From NCBI RefSeq assembly GCF_964204645.1, contig NC_134030.1, forward strand, positions 2,209,855 to 2,273,854: 64,000 nt of DNA, read 5' to 3'. Each line of letters starts with the position of its first letter. Within the stretch, counting starts at the first letter, position 1. This stretch comes from Tubulanus polymorphus. Taxonomy: Eukaryota; Nemertea; Palaeonemertea; Tubulaniformes; Tubulanidae. Positions 22,601-64,000 of this stretch are shown here, piece after piece. A program made the position numbers and the translations under genes. The notes below the pieces were generated by a model that searched no databases, was not told the origin of the DNA, and was given only the letters and a program-made list of their open reading frames with translations.

Positions 22601-22938
22601 TCGACTTTAGCCGACTCGTCGTGAATGAGTTCGCCGTTCGCGACATCGCGCAATAAATCCCAAACTACCGAACCGCGACGCTGTTTAAACAACGACAGAC
22701 GCGGCGCCGGGTTACCGCCGATCGCGACGCAACGCCACCTAGCGGTCGAACCTACCGACACACCGGTGCCCGGTGGAGTCAATTCAATTCGATCGGGCGG
22801 ATCTGAAATATTGGAATAATAGTAAAAATTTAAGTTTGTAGGATGGCTTTATATAAGTCAAGAAGATACACAATTAATGAGGAATAAGGAATATACGAGA
22901 AAAATCAAACAATAATTCAGCCAAAAAATGAAAAGTTC

Positions 22939-23026
<88 letters not shown>

Positions 23027-26000: not shown

Positions 26001-27054
26001 GGCAGCGGATTGATACCAGTATTAGTCATGTGCAATTGATTTATGGGGTAGTTACAGTAAACGAGCAGAATTGAAACTCACCTAAAACCTTTACGCGAAT
26101 CTTATTTCCTCGATTCAAGAACGAACACGACCAATCGGTGCTGTCCTCTAGTGTCACCGCGCTGATCACTAGTTTATAAATGCCGAGGTTTTTTTGGCCG
26201 CAAACGACGGAATATCGCGGCCGGTTGAGCATCAGACCGCAATCTCGTGAAACGTCGGTCGTGGCGCGGATCCAAATGACGGGAAACTTGCATTCGGTTG
26301 ACGCTACAGCCGGAGTTACCGTACACGTGAGTGTGATACTAGATCCGATACCCGGTTCAGAGTTACTAACAACTCCTACTACTGACTGCGCCGGCACTAA
26401 ACAATCTACAATTAAAAATCATACATGAAAATATATTCCCGGAATGAGTGAAGAAATTCTGGTTTCAATAAACTTCGAATTTGTTAAAATTCTCAGTTTC
26501 CAGTTATGGGATAATTTACTCTTGACAATATTTGATGAGGCCCCGTAAATAGGCAAGTAAAGATCACTAGGAATCGCATTCAGATAATGGAGTTCACAGG
26601 TAAACTATGGAAAAACCTGGGTTAAAACAGGATTTCTGATCGGCTAATTATGACGCTATCCGAGCTACGCCCTGACGCGGAGGATGTGTGCAGACAGCTC
26701 ACTAGATGGCGTCACATCAATACATGTGTAATAGAACTATCGTCTTCATTTTCCGAAAACTAGGCAAATCTTGGCGATGACATATCGATCTTTTATGGCA
26801 TGATTTCTATTCATCATTCGAGGAATTTTCGATACTAGATTCAGGGGCGCCTATGATTCAATAATTCGGAAGTTTATTTAGAGCCGAGATCACATGACAG
26901 CTATTTACTGATTATTCCACATGATGAAGACAAGTGAATTCAACCCCTATCAGCGAATATTTTACTTACTGCATTCAATCTGTTGAACGGATAAAAATAG
27001 TAAAATAAAAAATCGTAAAATAATTTCCGTCATCGAATAGTTTGATGCCACCAT
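13413..27054 (-). CDS. Ig/FN3 single-pass receptor with ITIM-like cytoplasmic tail (17 exons)
   Basis: Reading on the minus strand, exons are 27054-26970, 26405-26082, 23454-23152, 22802-22512, 21712-21389, 21041-20718, 20171-19893, 19534-19241, 18584-18279, 17824-17519, 17130-16995, 16066-15948, 15735-15702, 15453-15389, 14282-14244, 14159-13996 and 13643-13413. They total 3624 nt, 1207 residues, with every phase consistent. Order: signal peptide (1-28), seven Ig domains (about 29-741), two FN3 domains (741-945), one membrane span (about 951-976) and a tail of about 230 residues. All ectodomain exons are phase 1-1 with one domain each. The tail has TVYADL, SEYAIV and SPYQNV (ITIM-like), YENQ and YQNV (Grb2-type YxN), and ends TVV (class I PDZ ligand). 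This suggests an adhesion or immune-type receptor signalling through SH2 proteins. Ligand and orthologue are unknown. Alternative donor use at 15365 would add eight residues. Confidence 0.88.
13996..14159 (-). CDS. Ig receptor exon 16: YQNV motifs
   Basis: Phase 1 in, phase 0 out at gtaagt. It encodes SSPMYENQP, DESPYQNVG and DENPYQNVR, three tyrosines in YxN context. The two halves with ESPYQNV and ENPYQNV look like an internal duplication. Confidence 0.85.
14244..14282 (-). CDS. Ig receptor exon 15: 39-nt basic exon
   Basis: Phase 1-1, acceptor ttttcag, donor gtaaac. It encodes ARPKVSPRKRGKG, a basic patch that could bind membrane lipid or act as a nuclear signal. It could be skipped without changing frame. 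Confidence 0.75.
14810..15228. repeat. hairpin element expanded by a 47-bp tandem array
   Basis: The outer ends (aaccaattgcagtcatggct ... catgactatgcaactgaacc) match the 18960 hairpin family. Between them a 47-bp unit (aagttgttagattggctata onward) repeats six times from 14911, for example 14911 and 14958. The rest of the intron 14283-15388 shows no feature. Confidence 0.88.
15389..15453 (-). CDS. Ig receptor exon 14: cytoplasmic tail
   Basis: Phase 2 in, phase 1 out. It encodes LTSKYAPIATDTSSGDHSPS. A second in-phase donor at 15364 would add the coding for NTPLLEL before joining exon 15. I cannot tell which is used. Confidence 0.7.
15555..15685. mobile_element. hairpin element, TTGCTCAAA family
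   Basis: Ends read ctgctcaaatgttggttaaa and its near-complement ccaacatttgagcaactggc. Related copies lie at 60949-61075 and 62822-62950. Confidence 0.7.
15702..15735 (-). CDS. Ig receptor exon 13: 34-nt microexon
   Basis: Acceptor tcggtttcag, donor gtgagc, phase 1 in and phase 2 out. It encodes TELEIKTDPN plus two split codons. It is needed: exon 12 leaves in phase 1 while exon 14 is open only if entered in phase 2. It lies right beside a hairpin element (15555-15685). Confidence 0.65.
15948..16066 (-). CDS. Ig receptor exon 12: cytoplasmic tail
   Basis: Phase 2 in, phase 1 out at a strong gtaagc donor. Tyrosine-rich stretch HSEYGESSYSGSIYGG. Confidence 0.8.
16995..17130 (-). CDS. Ig receptor exon 11: membrane span
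   Basis: Phase 1 in, phase 2 out. It encodes a helix of about 26 residues rich in I, V and A (NIIIGVVAAIVVILVIVIVA) followed by a basic stop-transfer stretch (CLRRQRLNKKK), setting the N-terminus outside. Confidence 0.92.
17519..17824 (-). CDS. Ig receptor exon 10: FN3 domain 2
   Basis: Phase 1-1, 306 nt like FN3 domain 1. PSVTISWKDI carries the core Trp, then IKYCND, and FNYYLQILDS replaces the usual Y.VRV strand. Two Cys (KYC, GCDY) may pair. The acceptor (tttttctgaag) is weaker than the others. Confidence 0.82.
17954..18250. mobile_element. CCAGTT-family hairpin element interrupted by a second insertion
   Basis: The outer parts (cagtcatggctaagattaaa ... gactgggcccc) match the hairpin family at 18960-19203 and 14810-15230. 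Between about 17996 and 18182 lies unrelated DNA with imperfect inverted ends (gcacgcggcaaaac and the complement of gtgccatgtgttgtg) and poly-A/T tracts. Minus-strand open frames here (17920-18173) are by-products. Confidence 0.6.
18279..18584 (-). CDS. Ig receptor exon 9: FN3 domain 1
   Basis: Phase 1-1. Starts GPPDKP, then SATIQWQAG (conserved Trp), FTIEYQ, and YRFRIQAINKQ, the standard FN3 core ending with the FAFTK strand. Confidence 0.92.
18960..19203. mobile_element. two adjacent hairpin elements, CCAGTTGCATAG family
   Basis: The first (about 18970-19087) runs from gagccagttgcatagtcatg to ctatgcaaccagcccctgg. The second (about 19085-19203) runs from ggggctggttccctagtcaa to gactatgcaaccggccccc. 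Both have the ends as inverted repeats and contain ttgttagattgg. They lie just outside the Ig7 exon. The rest of 18585-18960 is unremarkable intron. Confidence 0.75.
19241..19534 (-). CDS. Ig receptor exon 8: Ig domain 7, atypical
   Basis: Phase 1-1. The end is canonical (SDFGTYVCSVIN). The B-strand Cys is missing (LEFTFVFV), and a CTC pair plus a later Cys (NVCKL) are present instead. The domain borders the FN3 region. Confidence 0.85.
19893..20171 (-). CDS. Ig receptor exon 7: Ig domain 6
   Basis: Phase 1-1. VTLKCEASNG, YQWEKHE and HSGGYVCKVTNSGG: a complete I-set type domain. Confidence 0.9.
20718..21041 (-). CDS. Ig receptor exon 6: Ig domain 5
   Basis: Phase 1-1, 324 nt. KSLTC, ITWYRRR and RAIYTCVVKYQNN. 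Probably arose by duplication together with domain 4. Confidence 0.9.
21389..21712 (-). CDS. Ig receptor exon 5: Ig domain 4
   Basis: Phase 1-1. KTITC, IVWDR and RATYTCRAKYNN. Closely similar in length (324 nt) and sequence to the next exon. Confidence 0.88.
22512..22802 (-). CDS. Ig receptor exon 4: Ig domain 3
   Basis: Phase 1-1. RWRC and MKC provide the Cys pair. The usual core Trp is replaced (LSLFKQ). The DNA is unusually CpG-rich for the locus. Confidence 0.87.
22910..23094. mobile_element. hairpin element with AT-dinucleotide core
   Basis: Inverted arms caataattcagccaaaaaat / attttttggctgaattattg flank a core of almost pure (TA)n, about 22941-23050. The whole can fold as one long hairpin. 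It sits in the intron between Ig domains 2 and 3. Confidence 0.8.
23152..23454 (-). CDS. Ig receptor exon 3: Ig domain 2
   Basis: Phase 1-1. I-set pattern: VTLTC, YSWKR, then DAASYTCTASN. It begins with the VPPSVP linker typical of Ig chains. Confidence 0.9.
23455..26081. repeat. satellite array in Ig receptor intron 2 (108/116-bp monomers, 681-bp higher order)
   Basis: From about 23470 to 25935 the intron is one tandem array. The monomer starts gaacacatgtgaagtgtgga and exists in a 116-bp form (with atgagagttgaaactgtgca) and a form of about 108 bp (with ctgaaagtgtgctgat). Four long and two short monomers form a block. Block starts at 23587, 24268 and 24949 are exactly 681 bp apart. Monomers at the right end diverge. 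Minus-strand open frames of 68-105 codons across 25268-25915 arise from the repeat and are not genes. Confidence 0.95.
26082..26405 (-). CDS. Ig receptor exon 2: Ig domain 1
   Basis: Phase 1-1. SITLTC and DWSC supply the core disulfide and VIWI the core Trp. Three further Cys (TECK, RDCG, VVCG) suggest additional bonds. It resembles the first Ig domain of the divergent plus-strand gene in having extra Cys. Confidence 0.88.
26970..27054 (-). CDS. Ig receptor exon 1: signal peptide
   Basis: The ATG (complement of 27052-27054) opens a 28-residue peptide with a hydrophobic core (IILRFFILLFLSV) and small or polar residues after it, then a gtaagt donor in phase 1. This is a typical secretory leader. 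Confidence 0.87.
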
Positions 27055-27849: not shown

Positions 27850-27916
27850 ATGGCGCCAGTATCATTTAAAACGATTCCATTGTTTTATCTAGTTGTTGTA
27901 AACATTATTCAAACGA
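27850..27916 (+). CDS. receptor 2 exon 1: signal peptide
   Basis: The ATG opens MAPVSFKTIPLFYLVVVNII followed by QT and a gtgagt donor in phase 1. It has a hydrophobic core and is in the same exon position and phase as in the divergent gene. Confidence 0.83.
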
Positions 27917-30592
27917 GTGAGTATTCTATTAACTGTAGGAGTTTTTACTGTGAACGTATTTTGTTTACAAACAAATCAATATATTTCAATTCACGAATTG
28001 AATGAATGATTCGCGCGGCCGCCGGTTAAAAAACAACCTACGACAGACGGACCGGCCCTCCTCTCGCCGGTTGCTGAATATATACTGCCTATGTCGTAGC
28101 TGGTTTGGTTTGTTAACAGTAAACATATAGAGTGACAGTGTATGAGTCTTCATATATTCAGTTTTCTGTATTGTCACATAGAGACATAGAGTAGACAGAG
28201 TGTGGGGTGGTAGACGGTCCTCCTTATTACTGAGATTACGTATTTTACCGAGATGACATGAAATATAACATATTTATTCATAACTCATCTCGGTAAATTA
28301 CGTCATCTCGTTAATAAGGAGGACCCGTGGTAGAGCCCGTTCATTTACACTTGAAGCAAAGCAGAGTCTGTTCAATTGATTAGTAATAAATGATACTTAT
28401 ATGCATATTTGTTTGGGATGCTGTTATGGAAAGACAGAGACAGAGACAGAGATGTCATGATTGCAATTACAAATATAGGCCTAAAAATTGTATTGGAATA
28501 GTATCAAAAATATAGGCGCGGGCCTACACATCAATACATCATCCATGATCTAGGCAGCTTTAAAGACTATTAATAAGAATTAGCTGTTCAAGTTGTCGGA
28601 ATCCAGTTGACGAGACAACTGGCTTTAGTGTCATAATTGTTGGACTGTTTCTCCTTTTTTCCAGGTTATGGATTATCGACGAAAGCCAAAGTATTCCCGA
28701 AACAGGTTCAACTATTCCGCGATGAATCTGTAAACGTTAGTTGTCGACTGACGGATTTTCCTCCGAATACGCACCCGGTCTGGCGTATCGACAGTCAAAC
28801 CCAACCGATAAACTTCAACCACGATTGTATGGCGTACCCGATGAGTTCGTTCGGTTCGTTTCCGATCGAATCGTTATCGGTTACGTGTAGTCCGGGCGCT
28901 GATTTAAATGCCGGTGGCTCCCTCATGTGGTTGAATATGACGGTTAAAACTAAAGGACAGTGGTACAGTAATGGCCGACCGATGTTCTACTGCGCGTTAC
29001 TCGCTAATCCTGAAGGTGTTGATGTCACATTACTCGGTATGTGGTTCGTTTTTTAAACAATTAATTTACCAATATCCTAAGCTTACTTGAAGTCCCGGTC
29101 CTGGGGCAAGTTTGGTATTAACTTTAACCCGGGGTTAACTCAATTGAAAATGAATTTGGTTAGTTCAAAATAATACCAGCTTGAAAACCTGACCCAGAGC
29201 CCAGTTTCATAAAAAGGTTTAACTCTTAAATCGATTTAATTTCTTCATTCAGTTTATCCTAGGCTTTAATCATTTTTGTGAAACTGGGCCCAGGACCCAA
29301 TTCCATAGAGCTCCTTCAAAGTCCCTCTGAAATAATGGACCTATATGCTAAAGCTACTTGGAGTTGAGTCTTCTGTATTTTGCTCATTTGTGTAAGTGTT
29401 GCTCATTTGTGTAAATGTTGCTCATTTGTGTAAAAGTGTGTAAGTAATTTGAAGAAGGCAACATAATTCAGAAGAGTAGACTGAGACAGCTGCTGCTGCT
29501 GCAGCTGTCTGATTGTGCTCTTATTCTTTATACAAACTCAGCTGAATATCTTGATATTTGAAAGAATATAACTGAGCTGTTTCCAATTCATGAATGCGAA
29601 GAGAGCAAATCTTTTTCTCTTTAGTTGAACCAAAATTTGTAGCTTATTCAACCAATTTTGGTTACTACACATGATTGCGGAAACCCTTCACTCCGTTATA
29701 TTATATTATCCCTGCATTCAAGTTATCACCTGTTTTGGTAGAAGGGCCCTATAGTTCCACATTCATAAGGCTTTCTACAATTCCGATTGTTAACGATGAT
29801 TTTCTGATGATTTTGAGTTGTGTTTCAGATCGAGTAACGACTGGTCAACTCGTCTCTAAACCGATGGTCAGAAGCGATCAGACTCTAAAACCTGAGGTTC
29901 AAATTAAATTCACTTGCGACACGGGAACTAATAATAACGAATGTCAATATACGAGACCTACGATTCAATGGATAGTCGGGGTACGTTTAATTTCATCATT
30001 TTAGAAACGTATTTGGGTATGCACTGCACATTATCATTATCACTTGTCCACTGGGCTAGTGCAGTTTTATGTCTCCAAGTTTTCCCAATCGATACAACAA
30101 ATGGACTGCTTGTGTAGGGCAAGTAGATTTTTGAGGGAGCAAGTAAAATTTCAGGGCCGGTGGCTCTTATTCCTTAGATCAGACCCTGTGTTTGGGTATG
30201 CACTGCACAGTAGACTGTGCGTTTGCATCAAATCTCACAGGGTTTATGCAAATTCCAGAGCACTCGGAGAGACATGAATTGGGAGTAGGATCATTTTAAA
30301 CATTCTGTCACTTGAGGCATGCAATAATGAGCTCGGGCTACACTGTAGTTGCATTATCCTCAATACGTGGACTTGATTCAATTTCTAATTGGTTTACAGC
30401 AAAAAGAAATCACGGAAGGCGTAGTGAATAATCCTGTAGATTGCGGAGGAAATCCGCCGAAATACCGAACATCCAGCGATATAAACATCAGCGGTGACCA
30501 GTTCAACGGAGTTCAGGACGTAAAGTGCGTCGTTAAAATGAAGGATAGAATCGATGAATCGGCGACTAAAACTATTACAGTCAAATTTCCAG
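27850..30592 (+). CDS. second Ig receptor gene, N-terminal part: signal peptide and two Ig domains
   Basis: Exons 27850-27916, 28665-29036, 29829-29980 and 30400-30592, with consistent phases (1, 1, 0, 1) over 784 nt, 261 residues. The signal peptide is followed by an Ig-like domain with several extra Cys, then a second Ig-like domain split by an intron. The last exon leaves in phase 1, so a downstream exon is required. In-phase candidates are the membrane-span exons at 56220 (short tail, stop) and 62619 (leading into a serpin). The extra-Cys Ig type is shared with Ig domain 1 of the head-to-head gene, suggesting paralogues. Function is inferred only as a cell-surface recognition protein. Confidence 0.82.
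28216..28325. mobile_element. MITE-like palindrome in receptor 2 intron 1
   Basis: The left arm starts ggtcctccttatta, followed by cgagat-type and ttaccgagatga sequence. The right arm is its reverse complement ending taaggaggacc, with arms of about 45 bp and a short AT loop. There is no coding capacity. The rest of 27917-28664 shows nothing. Confidence 0.78.
28665..29036 (+). CDS. receptor 2 exon 2: Ig domain 1
   Basis: Phase 1-1, 124 codons, acceptor ttttttccag. VNVSCRL, PVWRID and MFYCALL give the Ig core; further Cys are at HDCM and VTCS. The exon is longer than a standard I-set domain because of a loop between the sheets. Confidence 0.82.
29196..29293. mobile_element. hairpin element, CCCAGTTTCATAA family
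   Basis: Runs from gagcccagtttcataaaaag to tttttgtgaaactgggccc, inverted ends around an AT-rich centre. A partial relative occurs at 38705-38785. Elsewhere in the intron 29037-29828 there is a short triple repeat of ttgctcatttgtgtaa (29395-29440). Confidence 0.7.
29829..29980 (+). CDS. receptor 2 exon 3: first half of Ig domain 2
   Basis: Phase 1 in, phase 0 out (gtacgt). VQIKFTCDTG and PTIQWIVG supply the first Cys and the core Trp. Confidence 0.8.
30400..30592 (+). CDS. receptor 2 exon 4: second half of Ig domain 2
   Basis: Acceptor tttacag, phase 0 in and phase 1 out (gtaaga). VQDVKCVVKM supplies the closing Cys and the exon ends TITVKFP. Failure to splice here would add 11 codons and a stop, which would give a secreted form. 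Confidence 0.8.
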
Positions 30593-32870: not shown

Positions 32871-33115
32871 TCATTCCCTGATTACAGGCCTTTTATGAAT
32901 TTTCAATTGCATTTCTATATTCTAAACTAACTATATTACAACCAACAAGGTTGTCTTTAAGACTAAAAGCTGGAATCTAGAAACTATATTCTATATAGAT
33001 ATATATTTGAGTTGATATTTTAGAAATTTGAAATACAGTGTTTCCAAGCGTGAAGATTTGATAATACAATCAACGATAATCTTTACAAACTATGATGTCC
33101 TGTGAGTCCTACTAG

Positions 33116-33265
<150 letters not shown>

Positions 33266-34189
33266 AAAGTACTGTATCAGCAACTCATCTCAGGAAGTGG
33301 TCTCATATAAAATACACAGGTTTCCATGGTAATCTATATTAAAACCTGAGGTTACCTTTAATGGGGGCGGCAGATCAAACACTTTATGTCAAAAATGATC
33401 GATCAGTTTTTGAGATATTTAATGAAGATGTTTGAAGATGATGTGTACGTTAAACATGAACTGATTAATTGTTTGATGGTGTTAATTGATGGGGTTTGAT
33501 TATCAGTTTCATTACAGCAGTCTGATATAGCACACAGTGGCCTGACAGGCCTAAAGTAGTCTTGATACAACTAAACAGTGGCCGGGCAGCAGTCTCAAGT
33601 CTGATACAGTAGTCTTGTAATGGCCTGATAGGCCTACAGTAATCTGATACAGTAGTTTGTAGTCTGATTCTGTAGTCTGAAACAGTAGGTTTCTATTGTG
33701 GGATGCAGAGGTTTCTAGTCTCAGTCACAGATCATTGTAGCTATTGTTATAATGTCACACGCATCACCGCGCGCTCTCCGCGCTCTCTCTCTCCTCGTCA
33801 AACCCCTGCTTCTATTTATAACTGATCTATCTATTGATCCGTAGTCAGGCTGTAATCGTATTATCCCTACCCGGGTTGGACACAGCTTGCGCGTTGTCTT
33901 GAGGTTTCTTTCTATTAAATCATTGTCTAGTGGCTGTTCGCGTATATCGATTTTATACACTAAAAATTATCCATAATTTCATCATCATCTACAGACACAG
34001 AGACGTATATAGATTATTCATTTGACGTCTGTTCTTGTTGTTGTATAATATATTGCTATTAATATATTCCATTTATTCATTTAGAATAGGTAAATAAACC
34101 TGTCTCATTTGTATATAATTATATTCCACTCAAAGCTGCTGATGTTCTGCTGCGGTTTAATTTGAAAAGCAACAAAAATGGACAGCATC

Positions 34190-51150: not shown

Positions 51151-52380
51151 GTGGTACTCTAGTTTACACCGCAGACTCCACGGTGTTTCCTTTCATTGCG
51201 ATACATTCATATTTCTGAGGAGAATGATTCATCTGAGGATTGGTTTTGAGACGATGAATGCGGTTTTTACCATCATCATCATCGTTTATGAATTGAAAAA
51301 TTCCGATATATTTTTACTCATCTCTCAGTCCTCACACTGTACACAACCCACACCTACACAACTATCACCTATCTCTACACTGTAAACTGATGTTTCATAG
51401 TAACATTGATTGTTAGGAGGGAATTTTTAAGTAAGGCATTTGTTTTTGAAGTGCTCTTGAAATTGAACACATGGTTAGTTTAATTATCGGATCGTATCTC
51501 TCGAGCACAGGTGGCTCATATCACATACCGTTTTCACATGTGGATATGGCCCCTCGTTTAATTGTGTAGATAGTAGCGGAACTTTCTGAATAGGGCGGGT
51601 AATGATTATAGTTGTAGTTTATAACTGAAGGTGGCGGCACCTCATAGATCGCTAGTCGTCCGTGTAGTGATGACTTCTTTTTCTTTTGTTTTATCTTGTT
51701 TTACGTTCGGAACTTGTTTCCCGAGACGAACCTGATCGGATTGTTCGTATGACCTCACATCCTGACCACGGCTGCTGAAATGTTGTCCACTGACACAGTG
51801 TAAGCAGCAGCAGGACTCGAACCCGCTTGTCCCTGAGCACTGATAGTGAATGCTACAGCTGGACTAGAACCCGCTTGTCCCTGAGCACTGATAGTGAATG
51901 CTACAGCATCACTCCTCACACCACTGTCTGAGTTACTGAGGCAGCTTTCTGAAAAATTTGTCTGATTTCTGAAAACTCTTTGATGCCTTCTGGCAATTTC
52001 ATCCTCTTCATAGAAAATTTGTTTGCAGTTGCAAACCTTTGTGACTTGATATGATTTTATTTTTGTAAATAAAAGTTTTAAGAAATGGATGAATACCTCT
52101 TGTGGGACAGACGTGTTTGAGGTGGTTAACTATCTAGATGTTTGTAATCAGTAATCCCGAATGTTGGCAGAAAATCGAAGGGTTGATATTGAATCGAAGG
52201 TCGATTTTATAGAATTATTTTGCCTAAATTTTTGCATGTTGCTTTTATATGATATATCAGATGCTTTTAAAATGCTAATCGGTTTCTTATTTTATTTTTC
52301 CATCTACAGAAGCAAAGACTGGTGCAGGTATAGTCCGCTTTTTATAATTATCTAAATGTTGTGTCTCGTTAAAACCGAGG

Positions 52381-53160
52381 ATTGAGTTCCACAGTTTCCT
52401 GGTTAAAGTTGAATCTATCAAAGTTAAAATCAGTTGATTTCCAATGTTTTTTTAACTCTATAGATTCAAATAAAACTGTAGAACTTGCTCCAGAATAATA
52501 TTCTAGATTTTACTAATATCCATTCTCATTTTCCTATTTTCAAACTCGATGTATGATAAATTGATTATTTTTCCCCACTTTTGTTAAGTTGGCTGGCAGC
52601 AATCTCTTTATTTTCAGTATTTCAATCCAATGCTTTCCCTTCATGTATAACCTCCACCTGAAACTCAGTTTCACAGTCTGTGGCTAGTTCGACTCTAATT
52701 ACAAAGATTAATTTATTTTTTAATGTTCGAGTCAAATTCTAACTCACAAAACTGTTGAACTGAGTCGACATGTTTTAATGTTTGTTTTATTTACACATTT
52801 TTATATTTATTTATATCAATGAATGTGTATATAGTATATACGACTTGTGACTTCAAAATTTTGATTTCTGTTTTGTTAAAAATGTATTGTTTGTCCATGT
52901 ATTCCACAGTTCAGAATCCAGTTCCACAGTTCTGGATCCAGTTCCACAGTTCTGGATCCAGTTCCGCAGTTCTGGATCCAGTTCCACAGTTCTGGATCCA
53001 GTTCCACAGTTCTGGATCCAGTTCCACAGTTCTGGATCCAGTTCCACAATTCTGGATCCAGTTCTGCTGTTCTAAGTAGAGATTTGACTTTTGAGTTAAA
53101 ATATTGAAAATGAACTAATCTCAACAAGAGTCAAACCAACAGCTCTGGAACTGGATCCGG
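52381..53160. repeat. hairpin-family copies and a 20-bp array derived from their terminus
   Basis: Hairpin-family copies lie at about 52381-52492 and 52667-52771. From about 52903 to 53065 the 20-bp unit ttctggatccagttccacag is repeated eight times, then follows the remaining end of an element (53080-53160, ending ctctggaactggatcc). The array unit is the terminus of the hairpin family. Confidence 0.9.
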
Positions 53161-54690
53161 AAACATGAATTATTTGCAAGCAAGTGGATACAGCGAACAG
53201 TTTCAAACAAAAATCTATATTTGAATATTTGAAAATGTTTTCCGCTGTTTAATTTGTGTTTATCACGAAATATTGAAATCCGTTTCAAACATTTTTTTCG
53301 GTTTCGTTTTTAAAGAAAACAACAAAAACGACACGAATAGTAAAACTGTACATGAGAAACCACAAACTGGCGCCAGTACTAATAAAGGTAACGCGTGAAA
53401 GATTCATTAGAGACAAATTGAAATTGAAGGTGGTTTGTTGTGTTGCAGTTACCTCTTTTGCTTCTTTCCTTGATGAAGTCTATAACTACGGTTTTAGTTA
53501 TAGACGATTCAAGTGTTTTAGCCGGCTGTCAATCATTTCTTTAAATCCCGCCACCTTTTTTATTTAAAACTGAAACCTTAAAACTATTTCAAATAACTGA
53601 TGATGTAGAATCCCACGATAAGATAGAAAAACGAGTTTGAAATGTTTCCTGATCGGCTAAAAATGGTTGATTCAACGTTTCAATTTCATCCTCATAGCAA
53701 TTAGAGTGGTCTCTTAGGATACAAGATCCTCTATTTAAACAGTATCCCGCCGCGTCATATTTGGTTTGCCAGTTTGTCAGTTTGCCTTTGATTTATGTTT
53801 TTAATCAAGAAAACGCCGGAAAGAATTAGATCAAACATTTTCCAATGGTGAAATCTATGAAAATTAGTTCCCTCGCGATACTGCAGAAATCAAGCCGTGA
53901 ATAGCCTTGAAGGAATACCTTGTTTTCCTTTCTTTTTGTGGAACCTTCTATATCATCATAACAACATGGACTCAGAGAATTGGTTAACCCAGGCCAGGGT
54001 TACCCCGGTCCTGGGTTACCCTGGTCCTGGGGCTGGATTATCCCACCCCTGGTTTGGTATTTTAATGATTGACAGTATTTTTACGCAGTTAGTAGTTTAA
54101 CACATTGATAAACTCCTCGGTTTTCGAGCCGGTGTCTGATTCGACGTAGTTCAAACGAATCATTCAGATATTTTTTTCAGGTTTTGGGTTTAGTTTTTTT
54201 TTCAGTTATAAACCGTTGTTGTTTTAAGTGTTGTACGTTTACTGTTTTATTAGTCAGTAGTTAGATAGTGTTTACAGTATTCATGTGTTTTCATATTCAA
54301 TTAATCCCTGGTTCATTCAAGTTTCATGTAAACCAGCGATACAACCACGTAATCTTTCAATCCTTTCGTTTCATTTTCGATGCGGGATTACGACTTTTGT
54401 CGAATACTTTTCTTTTATTGCTTTAGTAGAGAAAATATATCGGTATTATTGGTGGGCTTGTGTAATCAAATTCAGGTCGTTAAAGTTTATTATCACGAGG
54501 CTAGATTCGATGATTTGTATAGAATAATAGCGTATAGGTGAATAGGTCAAGTCTAGAGTCCTTCTCATTGCTATAACTGGTTCCGAAACTAGTTGATTGA
54601 ACCATGGACTCTTGAACGCAGCGCGTCGTCTATTGCATACAGGCAGTAGGAAGAAGCAGCTGTTGTGTGTGTGGTGTGTGTATATCCAAT
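53161..54690. other. non-coding, upstream of the small membrane protein gene
   Basis: At 53630-53705 there is a diverged copy of the gtctgaaatgtttcc / gttcaacgtttc element. A short tandem of gttaccc(t/c)ggtcctgg occurs at 53985-54045. No exon recognised. The promoter of the following gene should lie at the right end; no TATA box is evident. Confidence 0.45.
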
Positions 54691-54796
54691 ATGTCGATGA
54701 TGGGATTCACACGGTTTTCATTCCGCTCGTCCGCGATGCTTCTAAATTCTCTACTCGTAGCCGCCGTGTTCGCGACCGTTCTCGCTCAGGATGATG
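54691..54796 (+). CDS. signal-peptide exon
   Basis: ATGs at 54691, 54697 and 54700 are in frame; the first is taken as the start. Donor gtatga, phase 1. Confidence 0.72.
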
Positions 54797-56416
54797 GTAT
54801 GAATTTTATACGGCGTCGATTTCGTGTTAATTAAGGGACGAATTAGATTTGAATTTCTAGACGGATTTATAGGATTTATATATCTGTGCGAGTGTGATGA
54901 TCACATGGGACTAAAGTAGTAGTTAGTCTACGGATTATGCAGTCCACCATGTATATGTGTAGCCTATGCTTGAATGTAGATTTTGTTAGCGATATTCAGT
55001 TATTCCGGATGGAGTGGACGGAGTCGTTAGTGTATGGAATGATGAATCAAATCGTTGGACGATAAAGACTGCTTCACACGTGTGTGCGTGTTTAAATTGT
55101 GTGAAATAATGAGGGCATGTGGGAGGGAGAGGAGGGAGGGAGGGGGGAGGGAGGGGGAGGAGATCATTAACCGTATCACTAAAACCAAAAATACATTAAG
55201 ATAGACGTAAATCCTCTTTATGTATTTTTGCTAAAACCTAACATCATTTCATAGAATGAATTTTCATTCTAAGTCTGAGATGAAATATGTTTTTTGGACG
55301 ATGGTCGAGAGTTTAGTTTCAATAGTCTTTTTCCATATTTCATATTAGATCTAGTTATCAAAATCTCGTTAGAACAATAGATTTATATCACGTCAATCAT
55401 GGGTCATCGTTTCAGTTGGGTTTATATTCTCTTTGAGGCACACATTGCACACTGTAACATGCTGATGTATATATATATGTATTGAATTTGGCTGATGGGA
55501 TTTAGAGTTTGATTGAATGAATTTGGTTGTGGGTCGCACACAAATTACTGATCGTCCGGTTCTGGCGGTGTATTGGAACAGCTCTAATCTAATTACATTG
55601 ATTTATATATCGAATTCTAATCAAAGAGGTTACGATAACCTCTCTCAGTGACCTCTTCACGAGGCTGTTGGAGGTCGGTCGTAATTGCCTCGCCGGTGCT
55701 AATTGCTTCCATAATCAAAAACCTAATTGACAAAAGGTACCAAGAGATTTTCAGATACGATACCATAAAACTCATTTAAAAGTAATCAAAATATACTTAA
55801 GTCGTTAAGTGTTAATAATGACTTAATTGATGAAGTCGTTTAAGTCATCTCTATTTTTGAGTCCCAATTTGCAATTCAATTAGATAAGCATAAGTCGTAA
55901 TTTGGATAAGTTGCCAATATATCGACCATCCCCTACTCTTACTAGGATGACTTGGATGAGTTTGGCTGTAAGGATTAATAATTTCGCTCCTATTTTCTGA
56001 ATTCGTTAACATCGAAAAACTCTTGGTAGCTCCGTAGAATTGACTGACTCGGTTGCAAAGTTTACGTGAACGTCCGGAATATTTTTGAAAAGAAAATTCA
56101 TGATAATTTATGTAAATTTATGAAAATATATGTAAATTTCGCAACCAGTCTTTAGACGAATCAATCCTAACCTCATTGGACACTAACCCCGGCTTTTTTC
56201 TGCCTCTTGTTATTTGTAGGTACCGGTGGAAGTTCTTCACCTCACAACCAGGCGGCGCCACTAACGAGCCCCGAGATCGCCGGTATCGCGATCGGTGCCG
56301 CGGCCGCCGTCGCGCTCTTACTCATCGGGTTAGTCATCTTCTTACGTAACAAACGCGTTCAAAACGAAAATAACGGACAAAAGGAGGCGCTGGCCGAAAA
56401 AGCGCAGGACGTGTGA
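54691..56416 (+). CDS. small type I membrane protein, two exons, 100 residues
   Basis: Exons 54691-54796 and 56220-56416 (303 nt, phase 1). The first encodes a signal peptide with hydrophobic core NSLLVAAVFATVLA and a likely cut before QDD. The second encodes a short Ser/Pro-rich stalk of about 20 residues, a 23-residue membrane span (IAGIAIGAAAAVALLLIGLV), a basic RNKR stop-transfer, and a 20-residue tail rich in E, K and Q, ending before TGA at 56414-56416. There is no ITAM, ITIM or Cys for a partner disulfide. I do not recognise the family. Each exon might also serve other transcripts: 54691 could join the 62619 exon, and 30592 could join the 56220 exon, all in phase 1. Confidence 0.7.
55119..55162 (+). 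other. G-rich tract with G-quadruplex potential
   Basis: More than six runs of three or more G separated by single A or GA, on the coding strand of the intron 54797-56219. The rest of that intron is AT-rich with a copy of the 39149 dispersed element (55800-55935). Confidence 0.7.
56220..56416 (+). CDS. membrane-span and terminal exon
   Basis: Acceptor ttatttgtag, entered in phase 1. CpG-rich coding DNA in AT-rich surroundings, ending in TGA, with a 3' UTR that stays CpG-rich to the poly(A) signal at 56905. Confidence 0.83.
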
Positions 56417-56904
56417 AAGAAGAACATCGACGCGAAAACAAAAATCCCGACCAACTTTTTACAAACGATTAAAAAAAAACACCTTGCGTTAATTTACACG
56501 TTTTAAAACACGTAGAATATTCGTGATGATCTGAGAAAAAATCTTGATACCGAAATGTGGAATTTCGTCGCTGTAAATCGCGACGGCGTTAATTTAGAAA
56601 TGTTCTCATCGCTCGGACGATGAATACTGCGAGATCGATATTTTACGAGATTGTTTTATCTCTGTTTTCATTCCATTTTTTAAAAATGAAGACGACAAGA
56701 AACTCTCGGATGGTAACGAACGACGGAGACTTATTTTAAAACGCGCGAAGAAGGATTCGGTCGTCTCTAGCGTTCAGTCAGATATGTACTCTTATTAATC
56801 AGTGGTCGTCTGTTAAAGGGGGTTTAAATGCGACGAGGCCCGCGATCAGTGATCATCGAACCCCCCGTTTTAAGTTTTGATTTTGTATACAACGCAAATA
56901 TGTA

Positions 56905-56910
56905 AATAAA
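56905..56910 (+). terminator. polyadenylation signal of the small membrane protein gene
   Basis: AATAAA about 490 bases after the stop, followed by T- and G-rich sequence. It is the first AATAAA after the stop. Confidence 0.7.
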
Positions 56911-57194
56911 TCTTTCTTGAGAAATTTTACACAAAGATTGATCGAGTATCTTCGTCATCAAATGTTTATTCTTACGTTTTCGATCAGCATTTTGGTTTAG
57001 AGGAGAATTCTCTACTGATCCGCCTTCAGTCTCTATCTCTCTCGTTAGACGCACCTCTGATTAATATATCTAATTAATAATTAACGTTATCTAATTAATC
57101 TTGATTGTTTAATTATCAAGCTTTTGCAAGTGGAGAAACAGTGTTAGTCTGTCCCGGGATGATAGAGGTTTTAAGTTAGAGAAGACTACACTCA

Positions 57195-57385
57195 AGTCAG
57201 AAACAACAGTTTAACTCAGAGATAACTGTTTAACTCAGAGATAACTGTTTAACCCAGAGATAACTGTTTAACTCAGAGATAACTGTTTGACTCAGAGATA
57301 ACTGTTTAACTCAGAGATAACTGTTTAACTCAGAGATAACTGTTAAACTCAGAAACAACAGTATAACTTAGAAAAAACAGTTTAA
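57195..57385. repeat. 19-bp minisatellite, about 9 copies
   Basis: Unit gataactgtttaactcaga. The unit resembles the central agttaactcagag part of the hairpin family. The remainder of 56911-58400 holds a short (TA)n at 58257 and no gene. Confidence 0.9.
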
Positions 57386-58410
57386 TTGAGAGATAACTCG
57401 GAAGATAATCTGAATAATCATCACAAGTTTTCACGGTGAAAAGAGATCCAACTTGGGCAGAATCTACTTAACTGCTTAGCTCAGATATCGCTTGCAAGTT
57501 AAGACAAATTTTGTCCTAAAAGACCTCACCCGGGATTTACTAACACTGCTTTAAGACACAGGCCAGGTTACGCACTTAACAAGGTAAACCTCATGAATCA
57601 ATGATTAATCTTTGCTTTCATTCTTAATTCATAATTCTTTAATCGAATCTAATTCCCCCTTGCATTCGAAAAAAATAAGAATTGATTCAAGTTCTCTGTG
57701 GAAAGGAGTCGTGGAAAAGTATCCGTTTTTAAGCGAATGATAAGGATTTGAAGAGGTTTATCTCATTGGCTGCTGATCTGAGGAATGTTCACACTATTTA
57801 ACACCAGATTTCAAACAGTAGTAAACTCTACTTTACTCGGTGGTATAGTATTAGTAATGTATTTTCTCATACACCACAACATCTAGAATATAATCTTTGC
57901 ACTCTATATAAAATGAGGCATGTTTATTATTATATAGATGGAATAATGAGGTTTCTGAATGTACAATTACAAGTTATTACCAATGGGATATAGTCGGTGT
58001 ACCGAGAGTTAGGAGGAGTTCTTACTTGGTAAAAGTCGCTGAATTTTACTCAAAATCTTTTCCCTTTAAAGCAATTGATGCTAACGCCACCGAGTGACGT
58101 ACAGTTTACTGTCTACTGCAAGTTCTATGATATTCTCTTGATCTTCATGCTCTGCTTTAGAGATGATTGTAATCGACACATTCACTGACAGTAGCAACTG
58201 TCATTAAACTCAGAATTATTAGGAAGAAATGAATTTCGTTCATTGATTGAAATTAATATATATATATATATATATATTTTAGGCGTTGATGTTTTAGTGT
58301 TTTAGTATCGAGACCGGATTTCAATGGCTGCATTTGAAGAATCTGAGAATTTTATTCGAAGTTATTGAGTCTCAGTAAATCTCATGAATCTAGTGAATCA
58401 GTCATCTGGA

Positions 58411-58503
58411 TCTGGTTCCACAGTTGTGAGTTAATTTCAGTTAGAATTAGTCTGTTTTCAATAAGTTGAATGTTTACCCACAACCGTCGAACTGGTTGCA
58501 GAA
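58411..58503. mobile_element. hairpin-family copy (GGTTCCACAG)
   Basis: Left end tctggttccacagttgtgag, right end acaaccgtcgaactgg, with attagtctgttttcaataag in the middle. Confidence 0.65.
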
Positions 58504-59485
58504 TCGTACGGTCTCAGTGTCTTGTAGTTTTCAATGTTTTGTCGGTTTAGATTTTGGGATTTTGCAATTATTTTACCGCCTATTATTTGTTCATTTAAAA
58601 ATGCATTTTCTATTTTAACGAAAAAATATGAAAGTTTCTTTAACGCGATGTAAATACGTTATCTTTAAAAGAAAACTAGAAAATTCTAGAATTGCTTTAT
58701 CAATTTTTCAAATGAAAAAACTTGATTAATATTTCTATAAGATTGATAATAAAAGATTTGATTTTCAGTTAACTCGTAATATTTGAATATTTGAAATTAA
58801 CTGTCGTCATATTCAACGCAAAAACAATCGCAAACAGATCCAAAATATGCGGTCACAAGACTTCGTACTTAGCGTTAGAATGGGGTACGGTGATGCCGCC
58901 TATCCCACCAGATGGCGTAACGAGACTCGGTCTTATGTTGTCAACGTTAGTTCATTATCGAAATCAACTTTGAACGCATCAGCGTTGAAATTCCCCCATT
59001 CAATTCCAAAGTCGTCTCTAGCATAGGATAGAATAATTTCATCAATTTGGCTACTGTATTTAGAAATCTGTGGTTCCCGGTTTTTGTAGACAGGGTTTTT
59101 ATGGGGTTCCAATCAAAATTGGGATAATGTTATTAGCGTAGAAATATTACCCCCAGTCTTTAGTCTTATTATTAAAATGAAGAATCAGTTTTTTTCTGAT
59201 GAGAGTACTTGGTTAGCTCAATGTAGTTTGTAAGTTTCGTTTGCTCAGCTCAGTTGAAGTCATCCACGCGGCGAACCATGACATGGTCTGTATGTGTATT
59301 TTGCGTAGGTTTTCACTATGGAATCTGTGAGGAATTATCGACCATCCAAGCCGGACTTGTAGCCAGGTTTCAGGGCCAAAAAAGCACATATTTACGGCAA
59401 TTTTCATGGGTAAAAAATTGAAAGACTTGTGATTAGGTATCGGAAAAAGATTTATGCTTTCAATTCTTTACCCATGAAACTTGCT
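58504..59485. other. non-coding
   Basis: No gene recognised. The patch 58800-58990 is richer in CpG and briefly open, but has no splice or family support. Confidence 0.4.
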
Positions 59486-59489
59486 TCAT

Positions 59490-59680
59490 AACCCTAACCC
59501 TAATGTCAGTCCCTCCCGGGATTTGATCCTGGGTCTCTCTCTTTGGAAGCCAGTGTGCTAACCACTAGACCATTGAGCTCTAGTGAAATAAGTTGTTAGT
59601 AAGTTTGTCTGGTCAGTGTTGATGACCATTAATCCATGGTGACCAGTCAGGTGTGTCGACTGATTGTCCTACTCACTAAC
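59490..59680 (-). mobile_element. tRNA-derived SINE copy 3
   Basis: Minus strand: caatggtctagtggttagca (A box), ggcttccaaag, and ccaggatcaaatcccgg (B box), preceded by a module with gtcatcaacactgaccag shared with the other two copies. Confidence 0.75.
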
Positions 59681-60860
59681 ATGCTTCAACTACGAGACTT
59701 TCCAATGAGGCTCATTACCAAATAAATCCATTATTCAATGGATCTTTTTAATGAGGTAGAACAATTTTAAAATGTTTTAGCTGATCAGAAACAAGGTTAT
59801 TAGGGGTTTTAGGGTGATGTTAAAATGACGGAATCCTGCATGGCTACAACCAACAAAGTTCCATTTATTTAAGAAATGTATAAATTATTTATTTTTTGTG
59901 CGTGTAGCAGCATTCCTAGTTCGATTGTGTGTGATAATTTTGAAATGAACCCTCAGTATTATTAAAAGCTCGCTTGCCGCAGTCTGCAATATCTATTTCA
60001 CTTGCTTGGCTCGTGTTAGCGCGTTCTCACGAGAATTCAAAAAATTATTTTACATGATTCATCTGGTTTAGGCTGTCATGATTTCTAGGAATATCATTAT
60101 AAGAACATTAGGGTAGAGATTATAATAGACAAATAGCAGTCGTAAAGCTGAAAGTAGAAACAGAAATTCACAGAATCATTAGAAGAATAACAACATTTAT
60201 GCTTCTAAGGTTGCGGGCAATAGACTTCATCTGGATTGATGGAAGTTTTCTACCCAAACCCTAAATATGTTGTTTTACTTCTAGTGATTGTGGGTTTTGC
60301 TTCTGACAGCATTAAGGTAATTTAGAAATACGAATTTTTAACATTTCTAATAAAAGCCTTTTTCCTAAAACGCTTGTCAACACTAAGAATGAAAAAATCT
60401 TTTTATCAGATTCGATTACCATGACTACTGTATGACGCGGGTTGTCATGGTAATGACTGTTTTTGTAAATACACGTATAGCCCTCTATATTCTGATGTCT
60501 GTAAATTGTTCGAAAAAAGATATTAACTTAAAAAATAAGAAATCGCTTTAAAAAAAAAAATATTTGTGGCTTGAGAAATGATGAAAGAAATGAATGGGAA
60601 TAAATTTTATATAAAATTTGTGCAGATATTAATTTATAAACGCTTTGAATTTTAGTGAATGTATAGTTGTAATAGTTCGGTGCTGATTGATGTAAATCGA
60701 TGTAGTCCCATGCTGATATGTATCCAATACATCATTAAACATGTATTTTAGTTGTTGTGATGTAAATATAATGTCATACCCCTCCGCGCTCGCAGCATTA
60801 GCATGTGTTAGGGTCATGATCTCCGTGTTGATATTTTATGTGATGGAGTTGCACAACAAA

Positions 60861-60904
60861 ACAGAGCAATGATCAAAACATAACAGTTTTGATCATTGCT
60901 CTGT
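60861..60904. repeat. perfect 19-bp inverted repeat
   Basis: acagagcaatgatcaaaac and its exact complement, separated by six bases. It could form a strong hairpin; there is no protein context. Confidence 0.9.
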
Positions 60905-60948
60905 ATCACTTGTTGGTCACCTGTTGGTTAACTAAGCAACTGAAGCGT

Positions 60949-61075
60949 TAGGGCTGCAATTGCTGATTTGGTTAGAGTCAACCATTGGATAGCAGACACA
61001 GTGAGAATTGAAAGTTTGTTATCACTTATATCCACTGGTTAACTCCAACCAGCTTTTGAGTAACTGGCTCCAGAT
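60949..61075. mobile_element. hairpin element, TTGCTCAAA family
   Basis: Contains ggttagagtcaaccattgga in the left arm and ccactggttaactccaacca in the right arm, ending tgagtaactggctccag. Related to 15555 and 62822. The flanking DNA (59681-62618) is otherwise without supported genes. Confidence 0.7.
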
Positions 61076-62618
61076 TTGTAAATCACATCAAATACTTGAG
61101 CACCTAAGAATCGATGTCAGTTTCATTCATATATAAGCTTTCCTCTCTGTCTTGAATTGTGCCATATAAATGTGGAAGAACTAATAAACAAGTTTGTATG
61201 CAATATTAATGTATTATATTGATGTATTTTATTTACCAGATACCTAGTAAACCATTTGGGTTCAGAAAAAAGCACATTGATTCACAAGATTTTGTCATAA
61301 AAGAAGAAAATAACTGATTGATAAGTTATATTTTGCCATCTTTTAGGGTTTCTCAAAATTCCAAAAGCTCGATTAGACTTAAGCAAACAGTGGTATTATT
61401 ATTGTTAATTTGTGAATGCGAGTTAGATTTTAATAATACAATACCGCTGTTTAATCCTATAGTATATATGTATTGAAGTTATCATGAGATACACAACGAA
61501 CCCACAGATGTACACAGCTTGGGCTTAGCGCATATCCCGAATGAAATGTATTTAATATTACATCGTGTATTTATTTATGTTAAAATTATGCGAAGAGCAG
61601 CCCTAGAAATTAAAGCATTATAGCATTTTTGTTTGAAGACATGTTCATAGCTGCACAATATTAGACTATTGATGTATCTTGTCGTTAATGAATATTCACA
61701 TTTCAACTCAAGTCAACAAACATCCATTTCTAGCCATAATACATTTGTAAATACGTAAGAGTTAAAAACCCATCATTTCTCTCCCTCTCTCTCTATCAGT
61801 ATCTATTACTTCTAACGAGTCAAAATTCTGATCTTCCATCTTATTATTTAGAGTATGAATAATCTGAAAAATTCCAGTAAACCAGGATCAAAGTTTTTGA
61901 AGTTGTGACACAAATATGACTCTGTTATCAACTTCTGGACTCGGTTCAGAAATCAATAATCTAAAGCTCAGATATGTTTTGGAAACACAGATCACCTTTT
62001 AGTTAGACTGCATTAGTTGAAATTGATAAATTTTCCAATATTTCAATTCTGGAGTGAAATAATGACCAACAGCTGTGTGGATCTGATCGAGTATATTCAG
62101 TGAACTGCAGAGAATTCTATTCTGAATAAATGATGATCAGAATTTTAAAAGCTTTAGATTTGCAGCTCATTATTAATATTTACTTGCACTCTCTTATCAT
62201 TTTCATTCTGTGAAGCAAGCATGTCTGCCCCTCATATCTGCCCCTCATATCTACCCCTCATTCTGTCATCGTTTGTTTTACGTTAAATTTACCTGTCATT
62301 ATTGTGAACAAAATATTAAAGTAATTTTAAGTAAAATAAAGATAAAAAATCTGATGTAATCGATTACTTTTATTTCGTCGATTTTCTCGACTGTGCATGA
62401 TGAATATATTAGGTAGAAGTGAATGCATTCTCTACTCTGGACTACTCTGGACCATAGCAGAGGATCACTGATGTTGCTGAGAACAGAACAAACAGAAGAT
62501 ATGGAGCTACAGAGATGTCATCGACCAGAGGAATCTTGAGCAACAGACAGAATTCAAAATCAATCCCTCATATCTTATAAATTGCTAACAAGATTTTATT
62601 TTTTCAATTTATTTCTAG

Positions 62619-62744
62619 TTGACGGTTTGAGTAATATGAAGTTGATCGCGATTATTATTGGAACGGCTGCCGGTGTTGCTATAGTGACTTCGATTATTGT
62701 CGCCATCGTTTTACATTTGAGAAAACAAAAACTATCTTCTACAA
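62619..62744 (+). CDS. membrane-span exon of the serpin gene
   Basis: Acceptor atttctag, donor gtaggt, phase 1-1. The pattern of span plus RKQK-type anchor is similar to the span exon of the minus-strand Ig receptor (CLRRQRLNKKK), which suggests common descent. Confidence 0.78.
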
Positions 62745-64000
62745 GTAGGTATTTTATATTTGTGCGGGTCCTGTACAGTTGGAGTCCTTTATGATGCTAC
62801 CGTTTGGATCGATAACAAACAGGGGCCGGTTGCTCAAAAGTTGGTTAGAGTTAACCAGTGGAGAGTTGATATGGTGACAATTGAAATTTCATTGTTACTA
62901 TGGTATTTAAAGGCCGGTTATTTTTAACCGATTTTTTAGCAACTGGCCCCTGGATGTTATAACAAATTTGGCATTATGTAAGAATGGTAATTTCATTGAA
63001 TTTGTATTGAGTAAGATTGGGAAAAAGTGTTCTCTGAAAAGTGTTAGCGTTGAGTGAGAAGTGGCATTGAAAAGGATGTCTTTATGACGGACTTCGATGA
63101 CAGTTCATTGTAAAAGTGCCCTGGACTTAATCTTCCCAATAACAGAAGTAATAGTGATAAGATGCTAGTATTAGGATGCCTTTTGTTTCCCAGCCGAGAG
63201 GCTAAAGGTTCAGAAACCTACAGGGTAGGAGGTCCTGGCACAGAGATTGAGATGAAGATGATTGTATATTATATAGTTTATAGCTTCGTAACCATTTCCA
63301 AAATTGTCAGTTAAAACTAACTCTAAATCTATAGAAATAAACCTAGAACTGTGGAATTGGAGTGTTGAAGAGTATTAAATTCTTGAGAGCTGGGGCTATC
63401 TTTATTTTGATATGTTGCACTGTTTTAGAATTGATTTTGACTCTCCCTCTCTCTTTCCACAGATGACTTGTGCATGTCGCAGAAAGGCAAAAAGATGCGT
63501 AAAGCTTACGTTTCCGAAATGGAAACTCCGCAAGAGCAGACGGCATCGGTGGAAGAAGCGTATTTCCACGACATCGTCTCCGCGACAACTTTATTCGCTG
63601 AACGATTATATTCTCGAATAGCGATGATAAACACGGATTCGATGATTCTATTTTCGCCGTTTGCTGTCATGAACATGATGTCGGCGATATCGACCGGAGC
63701 TCGCAACGCGACCGCCGACGAGCTGGAGAAAACCATCCGAATAAACGCCGTCAAAAATCTCGATTTGAAATTCGAATCGTTGAATCGTCTGATCAACCGA
63801 AATCCGAACAATCGTAACTACACGTATAAACTAGCACAGGGAATGTTCGTCGCCGCGACGACCGAATTAACGCCGGCGTTTAAATCGTCCGCTCAACGGA
63901 ATTATCGTATATACGTGCGTTCGGTCGATTACCGAGACGGCAACCGACACGACGTACGACACGAGGTGAACGAATGGTGTCGTAACGCGGCCGGTATCGA
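62619..64000 (+). CDS. transmembrane serpin gene, partial (membrane span + cytoplasmic serpin domain)
   Basis: Exons 62619-62744 and 63463 to the window end, both joined in phase 1. The first encodes a span of about 26 residues (LIAIIIGTAAGVAIVTSIIV plus AIVLHL) followed by basic RKQK. The second continues through a linker of about 35 residues into a serpin: FAERLY (helix A), NTDSMILFSPF, MSAISTGARNATADELEKT, LAQGMFVA, AFKSSAQRNYRIYVRSVDY and VNEWCRNAAGI. These match the helix A to strand 1-2 region of the family in order. Serpins trap proteases with a reactive loop near the C-terminus, which lies beyond this window, so inhibitory activity cannot be judged. The upstream partner exon must leave in phase 1; candidates are 30592 (two-Ig ectodomain) and 54796 (signal peptide). 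Confidence 0.78.
62822..62950. mobile_element. hairpin element, TTGCTCAAA family (best copy)
   Basis: Starts ggggccggttgctcaaaagt and ends ttagcaactggcccctgg, nearly exact inverted ends, with ttaaccagtgga and a centre containing aattgaaatttcattg. It lies in the intron 62745-63462. A partial CCAGTT-family copy follows at 63305-63360. Confidence 0.78.
63463..64000 (+). CDS. serpin-domain exon, partial at window end
   Basis: Acceptor ctctttccacag. Open for 179 codons without a stop, entered in phase 1 and running off the window. High CpG and GC relative to the flanks. The first in-frame ATG is the fifth codon, so a conventional cytosolic serpin start inside this exon cannot be excluded. Confidence 0.9.

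Follow-up and report, generated by a model that had tools for sequence, protein, structure and literature searches.

A serpin domain joined in phase to a membrane span in a predicted Ig-like receptor gene of the nemertean Tubulanus polymorphus

The window analysed here, a stretch of 64,000 nucleotides on contig C6 of the 267.8 Mb T. polymorphus genome, carries at its right end a membrane-span exon that lies in phase with a serpin exon, and a database gene model joins the two to a receptor-type ectodomain. The reading that we consider fairly probable is that the gene specifies a single-pass type I receptor made up of a signal peptide, a pair of divergent Ig-like domains, a short stalk, a membrane span and a complete but strongly diverged cytoplasmic serpin, the last as a putative binding module. 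The exons of the proposed gene are as follows (phases given as in/out):

27850..27916, + strand: candidate signal-peptide exon, MAPVSFKTIPLFYLVVVNIIQT, phase 1 out, donor gtgagtat; added here, absent from gene model P0003
28665..29036, + strand: ectodomain exon A, weakly Ig-like, phase 1/1; contains the start Met of P0003 (28829)
29829..29980, + strand: ectodomain exon B, phase 1/0
30400..30592, + strand: ectodomain exon C, phase 0/1
52310..52327, + strand: stalk microexon of 18 nt, reading E-A-K-T-G-A with the flanking base, phase 1/1; present in P0003
62619..62744, + strand: membrane-span exon, phase 1/1
63463..64781, + strand: serpin exon, phase-1 start, stop at 64781 (the window ends at 64000)

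Gene structure and coding tests

The initial annotation had drawn attention to the shared phase 1 of the span and serpin exons, to their splice sites and to the 718 bp between them; when the boundaries were re-read from the sequence, all of this was confirmed. The span exon is bounded by the acceptor atttatttctag and the donor gtaggtat and is of phase 1 on both sides, while the acceptor ctctttccacag directly precedes position 63463. The intervening intron (62745-63462) is 718 bp long, and splicing it out creates an AAT (Asn) codon at the junction. Past the end of the window the serpin continues to the end of a single 1319-nt exon, in which the codon split by the junction is followed by 438 full codons and the stop ends at 64781. 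Reading through the span-exon donor leads to a stop at 62794. When the span was used as a query, its own locus was the only match in the genome.

A protein query composed of span and serpin returned four proteins from 8,000 scored candidates: three distant serpins and P0003, a 671-aa gene model at this locus which matches with 100% identity and coverage and joins 62744 to 63463. P0003 starts at the internal Met at 28829 and proceeds in one frame through the three ectodomain exons, the 18-nt microexon, the span exon and the serpin exon. Placing exon 27850-27916 before the P0003 exons gives an unbroken reading of 748 aa that is letter for letter P0003 at its end, and in which a candidate signal peptide, two weakly Ig-like domains, the span and the serpin follow one another. 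The codon use of the added exon is background-like (p 0.49) and unlike coding sequence (p 0.0018). The exons at 27.8-30.6 kb lie ~32 kb upstream of the span exon. The microexon is symmetric and dispensable for the frame, and a predictor blind to transcripts would have had little reason to include it, so P0003 is possibly RNA-supported; we take its presence as an indirect sign of such support, not as proof. No ortholog of the fused gene was found among the 8,000 candidates, scored from a database that holds Lineus longissimus proteins; the fusion may be narrowly conserved, may diverge fast, or may have been missed by the search. An NCBIfam scan of P0003 returned nothing relevant.

The likelihood that the span exon arose by chance was assessed with 27.8 kb of neighbouring non-coding DNA, read on both strands (55.6 kb), from which open AG..GT segments of 60-250 nt were collected using splice filters looser than the values of the span exon itself. 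A 19-residue window with a mean hydropathy of at least 2.3 occurred in none of the 51 segments that passed these filters; the value for the span exon is 2.54. The span exon contains eight CpG dinucleotides (mean 2.9; eight or more in 4.5% of 3,922 non-coding windows), and its observed/expected CpG ratio is 1.87, against 0.45 and 0.47 in the flanks; the surrounding exons are likewise CpG-rich. Its synonymous codon use falls between background (p 0.069) and coding (p 0.01). The 37 codons that follow the serpin acceptor are coding-like, their score (with these codons held out of training) being reached in 0 of 5,000 background draws, and so are the first 18 of them, which lie upstream of the Met with the best start context (p 0.013). 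The score of the whole serpin, 196.8, is not independent, as the serpin belonged to the training set; since its frame is open across 438 codons, it is probably no decaying copy. Between 56.9 and 63.46 kb no other coding-looking exon stood out when codon score and splice filters were applied.

Ectodomain, related receptors and a nested gene

The ectodomain resembles Ig domains weakly at best. Together with the candidate signal peptide it contains eight cysteines and three N-glycosylation motifs; one of four family members matched the Ig C1-set profile, weakly (20.2 bits, cut-off 21), and the seven weak PDB profile matches were all to Ig proteins (best E 0.4). No homolog was found among 502 scored candidates from the protein database, a search restricted to lengths of 170-541 aa, a range outside which P0003 falls. 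Three features of the window were seen besides. A large gene on the - strand (~13900-26420), several exons of which look Ig-like or fibronectin-like by eye and whose tail is rich in YQN, stands in an approximately head-to-head arrangement with the receptor gene; an intronless GPCR-like frame of up to 385 codons (1856-3013, +) was seen by eye between WD-repeat-like exons; and a long trinucleotide run at ~33100-33290 leaves several frames open as poly-Leu, poly-Gln, poly-Ala, poly-Ser or poly-Cys.

The claim that the serpin sits on the cytoplasmic side of a receptor fared well in one part: ectodomain, span and serpin are joined in P0003, and a paralog on contig C10 also splices onward after its span, which supports a single gene with a receptor-type ectodomain, a span and a serpin beyond it. 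For the other part, the topology, we have to infer. Basic residues stand after the span, and among the 15 residues on each side there are two K/R outside and three inside, a small difference in charge; the tail, with five cysteines and four glycosylation motifs, does not discriminate between orientations.

A genome search with the ectodomain produced seven matches: its own three exons, one locus on C10 and three on C6 at 2.67-2.69 Mb. The C10 locus (~630911-626350, -) appears to encode a paralog of the receptor that is Ig-like outside, has a single span and ends in an SH2-like cytoplasmic tail, a combination that is itself unusual. Its ectodomain is 33% identical to that of the window gene, and the phases at the boundary between exons B and C and at that between C and the next exon are the same. 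As read from the sequence, its span has a phase-1 donor, after which exons with coherent splice sites lead to the SH2-like domain and a stop; the frame of the span requires a small exon between exon C and the span, assumed here and unlocated. The tail matches the SH2 domain of PLC-gamma (E 8e-5) and Pfam SH2_1 at E 0.0046, below the cut-off, and was absent from the 66 matches of a whole-genome SH2 search. No SH2-like tail exon of this kind was found near the window gene with tblastn. One receptor plan thus seems, on the strength of these readings, to carry two different cytoplasmic modules, and the family may exchange such modules. The C6 matches (2.666-2.686 Mb, -) form a recently duplicated tandem trio of related ectodomain exons and span exons. 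The copies are about 79-98% alike in aligned pieces, so alike that the exons of their tails could not be selected by conservation; no domain was seen by eye in the tails of the trio at 2.66-2.69 Mb.

Within the receptor intron 52328-62618, and on the same strand, which is unusual, lies a small two-exon gene (54691-54796 and 56220-56416, +). Its predicted product of 100 residues has a leader, a single span and hardly any ectodomain. The gene has its own stop and an AATAAA at 56905-56910, and is frame-compatible with both the ectodomain exons and the serpin exon. Its leader, 54691-54796, was considered as the start of the receptor and rejected: the frame does fit, yet the leader and 56220-56416 together make up the small protein, and the leader is missing from P0003. 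Rejected too was a receptor made of the ectodomain and the span exon at 56220, frame-compatible as this is, but with an exon that has no donor and with no model carrying this ectodomain among the 502 candidates. A short-tail isoform that uses the 56220 span exon is an alternative, and it is possible that the leader or span exon of the nested gene is shared in other isoforms.

Divergence of the serpin

The serpin matches Pfam PF00079 over profile positions 2-366 of 370 with 185.5 bits (cut-off 27), a full-length match above the curated cut-off that places it in the serpin superfamily; its best PDB match is leukocyte elastase inhibitor (E 6.8e-30). Reading past position 64000 brought the reactive loop and hinge into view. 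The hinge, DKNTKPQEER, is non-canonical when set against EEGTEAAAAT. The inhibitory consensus, as given in a passage of PMC9820262, has E at P17, E/K/R at P16, G at P15, T/S at P14 and A/G/S at P12-P9, and the same passage describes a proline in the proximal loop as harmful to inhibition; changes at P12-P9 serve, in an excerpt of PMC7692276, as the ground for calling serpins non-inhibitory. In the window serpin P16 (K) and P14 (T) fit this consensus, while P17 (D), P15 (N) and the whole of P12-P9 (P-Q-E-E) deviate from it, with a proline at P12 and charged residues from P10 to P8; the losses comprise P17, P15 and all of P13-P8. The exposed-loop region is of about normal length and acidic, and the serpin also bears an Asp/Asn-rich insert.

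The conserved core was compared with that of 25 serpins out of the 123 other listed proteins (all three from the span + serpin search and 22 of 120, picked for spread, from a search with one C4 serpin), among which 90 columns are near-invariant, i.e. at least 90% uniform. The window serpin keeps 37 of these 90 positions and loses 53, whereas each comparison serpin keeps 86-100% in leave-one-out comparisons; most of the comparison serpins had been retrieved with a canonical query and so lean towards the canonical pattern, although the size of the gap stands. The changes include the GNW tryptophan and the NAIYF asparagine, which we take to be core residues of breach and shutter.

A profile search located five other serpin loci in the genome, four of them full-length and one detected as two partial matches (C9:838578-839310), with in-frame stops in one of the two, probably a broken copy. 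Each of the four full-length serpins has its coding region in a single exon, and the window serpin is 20-25% identical to them. Three of the four have the hinge EEGTEAAAAT or EEGSEAAAAT, the C9 serpin reading KDGTEASAAS. When one C4 serpin was used as query, the best match was protein P0007 (90% identity), probably the other C4 copy, and two canonical serpins of Lineus longissimus were among the matches. The C8 serpin has an acceptor-like site shortly 5' of its ATG, as would be expected of a 5'UTR intron. It was inspected, among the four, as a candidate for a second fusion of membrane span and serpin and was rejected: hydrophobicity before the ATG is 1.71 counted from the likely acceptor and reaches 2.34 when the intron side is counted. 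The case cautions against relying on hydrophobicity by itself.

Because of its strong divergence and broken hinge, the window serpin is unlikely to trap proteases. It appears from its sequence to be a serpin by descent and probably no inhibitor, and a role in binding or as a scaffold fits better than trapping.

Alternative readings and comparison with known serpins

Chimeric gene models are common, and P0003 might have merged two genes, a receptor that stops at 62794 and a free serpin of the cytosol that has an intron in its 5'UTR and is translated from an internal Met, for instance METPQ. The acceptor-like site before the ATG of the canonical C8 serpin, with its likeness to a 5'UTR intron, the start context of METPQ, good as judged by eye, and the single coding exon of all four full-length serpins agree with such a merger. 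P0003 itself, by linking receptor and serpin, speaks against it, as do the C10 paralog, which splices onward from its span in phase 1, and the coding-like 18 codons before METPQ (p 0.013), though a start at MSQKGKK would explain most of that signal. A merger of two genes is the strongest rival reading, though on balance we judge it unlikely. Still less probable is a membrane-anchored serpin that lacks the Ig ectodomain, with the span joined to the leader 54691-54796 or with Met 62634 as the start of a signal anchor. Leader, span and serpin do form a single open frame (phase 1 to 1), Met 62634 has, by eye, an A at -3, and the ectodomain is 32 kb away; P0003, however, begins in the ectodomain and includes the microexon, and the leader and 56220-56416 make up a complete small protein.

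A receptor that senses or traps proteases, with a cytoplasmic serpin that inhibits an intracellular protease or is cut by one, had been the initial annotation's suggestion. The serpin domain is complete, its loop region is near normal length, and cleavage of the loop could occur even where inhibition does not. The hinge DKNTKPQEER, with Pro at P12 and charges at P10-P8, and the loss of 53 of 90 columns that 25 serpins keep to 86-100% nevertheless make this the kind of function that we would be very surprised to find, and the suggestion was not borne out.

The type I receptor with a diverged cytoplasmic serpin, for which we infer the fused mRNA, the signal peptide, the topology and the binding role, would most likely work as follows. 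A ligand bound outside by the ectodomain would influence the interactions of the serpin domain inside the cell, where the serpin would act as a cytosolic binding or scaffold module at the position occupied in the C10 receptor by the SH2-like domain; with a hinge and loop unfit for insertion into sheet A, it would probably not trap proteases. The fusion may have originated when the phase-1 donor of the span was spliced into an acceptor before an intronless serpin gene, an acceptor of the sort suggested by the C8 acceptor-like site. A broader proposal, to which we give an even chance, is that a small palaeonemertean family of Ig-like receptors swaps whole tails at the phase-1 intron directly after the span: one member carries an SH2-like tail, while the window gene captured an intronless serpin, which then gave up inhibition for a signalling or scaffold role.

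Full-text searches of open-licence literature retrieved no 'transmembrane serpin' and nothing that combined serpin, Nemertea, immunoglobulin and receptor, and no description of a serpin as the intracellular domain of a receptor was found in the open-licence literature searched. What did emerge, from excerpts of published work, was SerpinB2 bound to lipids and SerpinB3 at the cell surface. A serpin serving as the intracellular domain of a receptor, if true, would be a new domain architecture in which a protease-inhibitor fold is reused as a membrane-tethered binding module, and the C10 paralog with its SH2-like tail makes the gene a test case for swaps of cytoplasmic domains via phase-1 introns.

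Among known systems, the C10 Ig-like receptor resembles the window gene in its related ectodomain, its phases and the phase-1 donor of its span, and differs in having an SH2-like tail where the window gene has the serpin. Serpins are usually free proteins, either secreted or cytosolic. The clade B-like serpins (leukocyte elastase inhibitor-like; P0007 and the C4 and C8 copies) share with the window serpin a near-complete serpin profile and a single coding exon; unlike them, the window serpin has a broken hinge, an acidic loop, an Asp/Asn-rich insert and a join to a span. Ovalbumin, maspin and HSP47, which appeared among the PDB matches and which we take to be non-inhibitory serpins, are like it in belonging to the serpin fold family and in their non-canonical hinge. 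These, however, are free cytosolic, secreted or ER proteins, whereas the window serpin would form the cytoplasmic part of a receptor.
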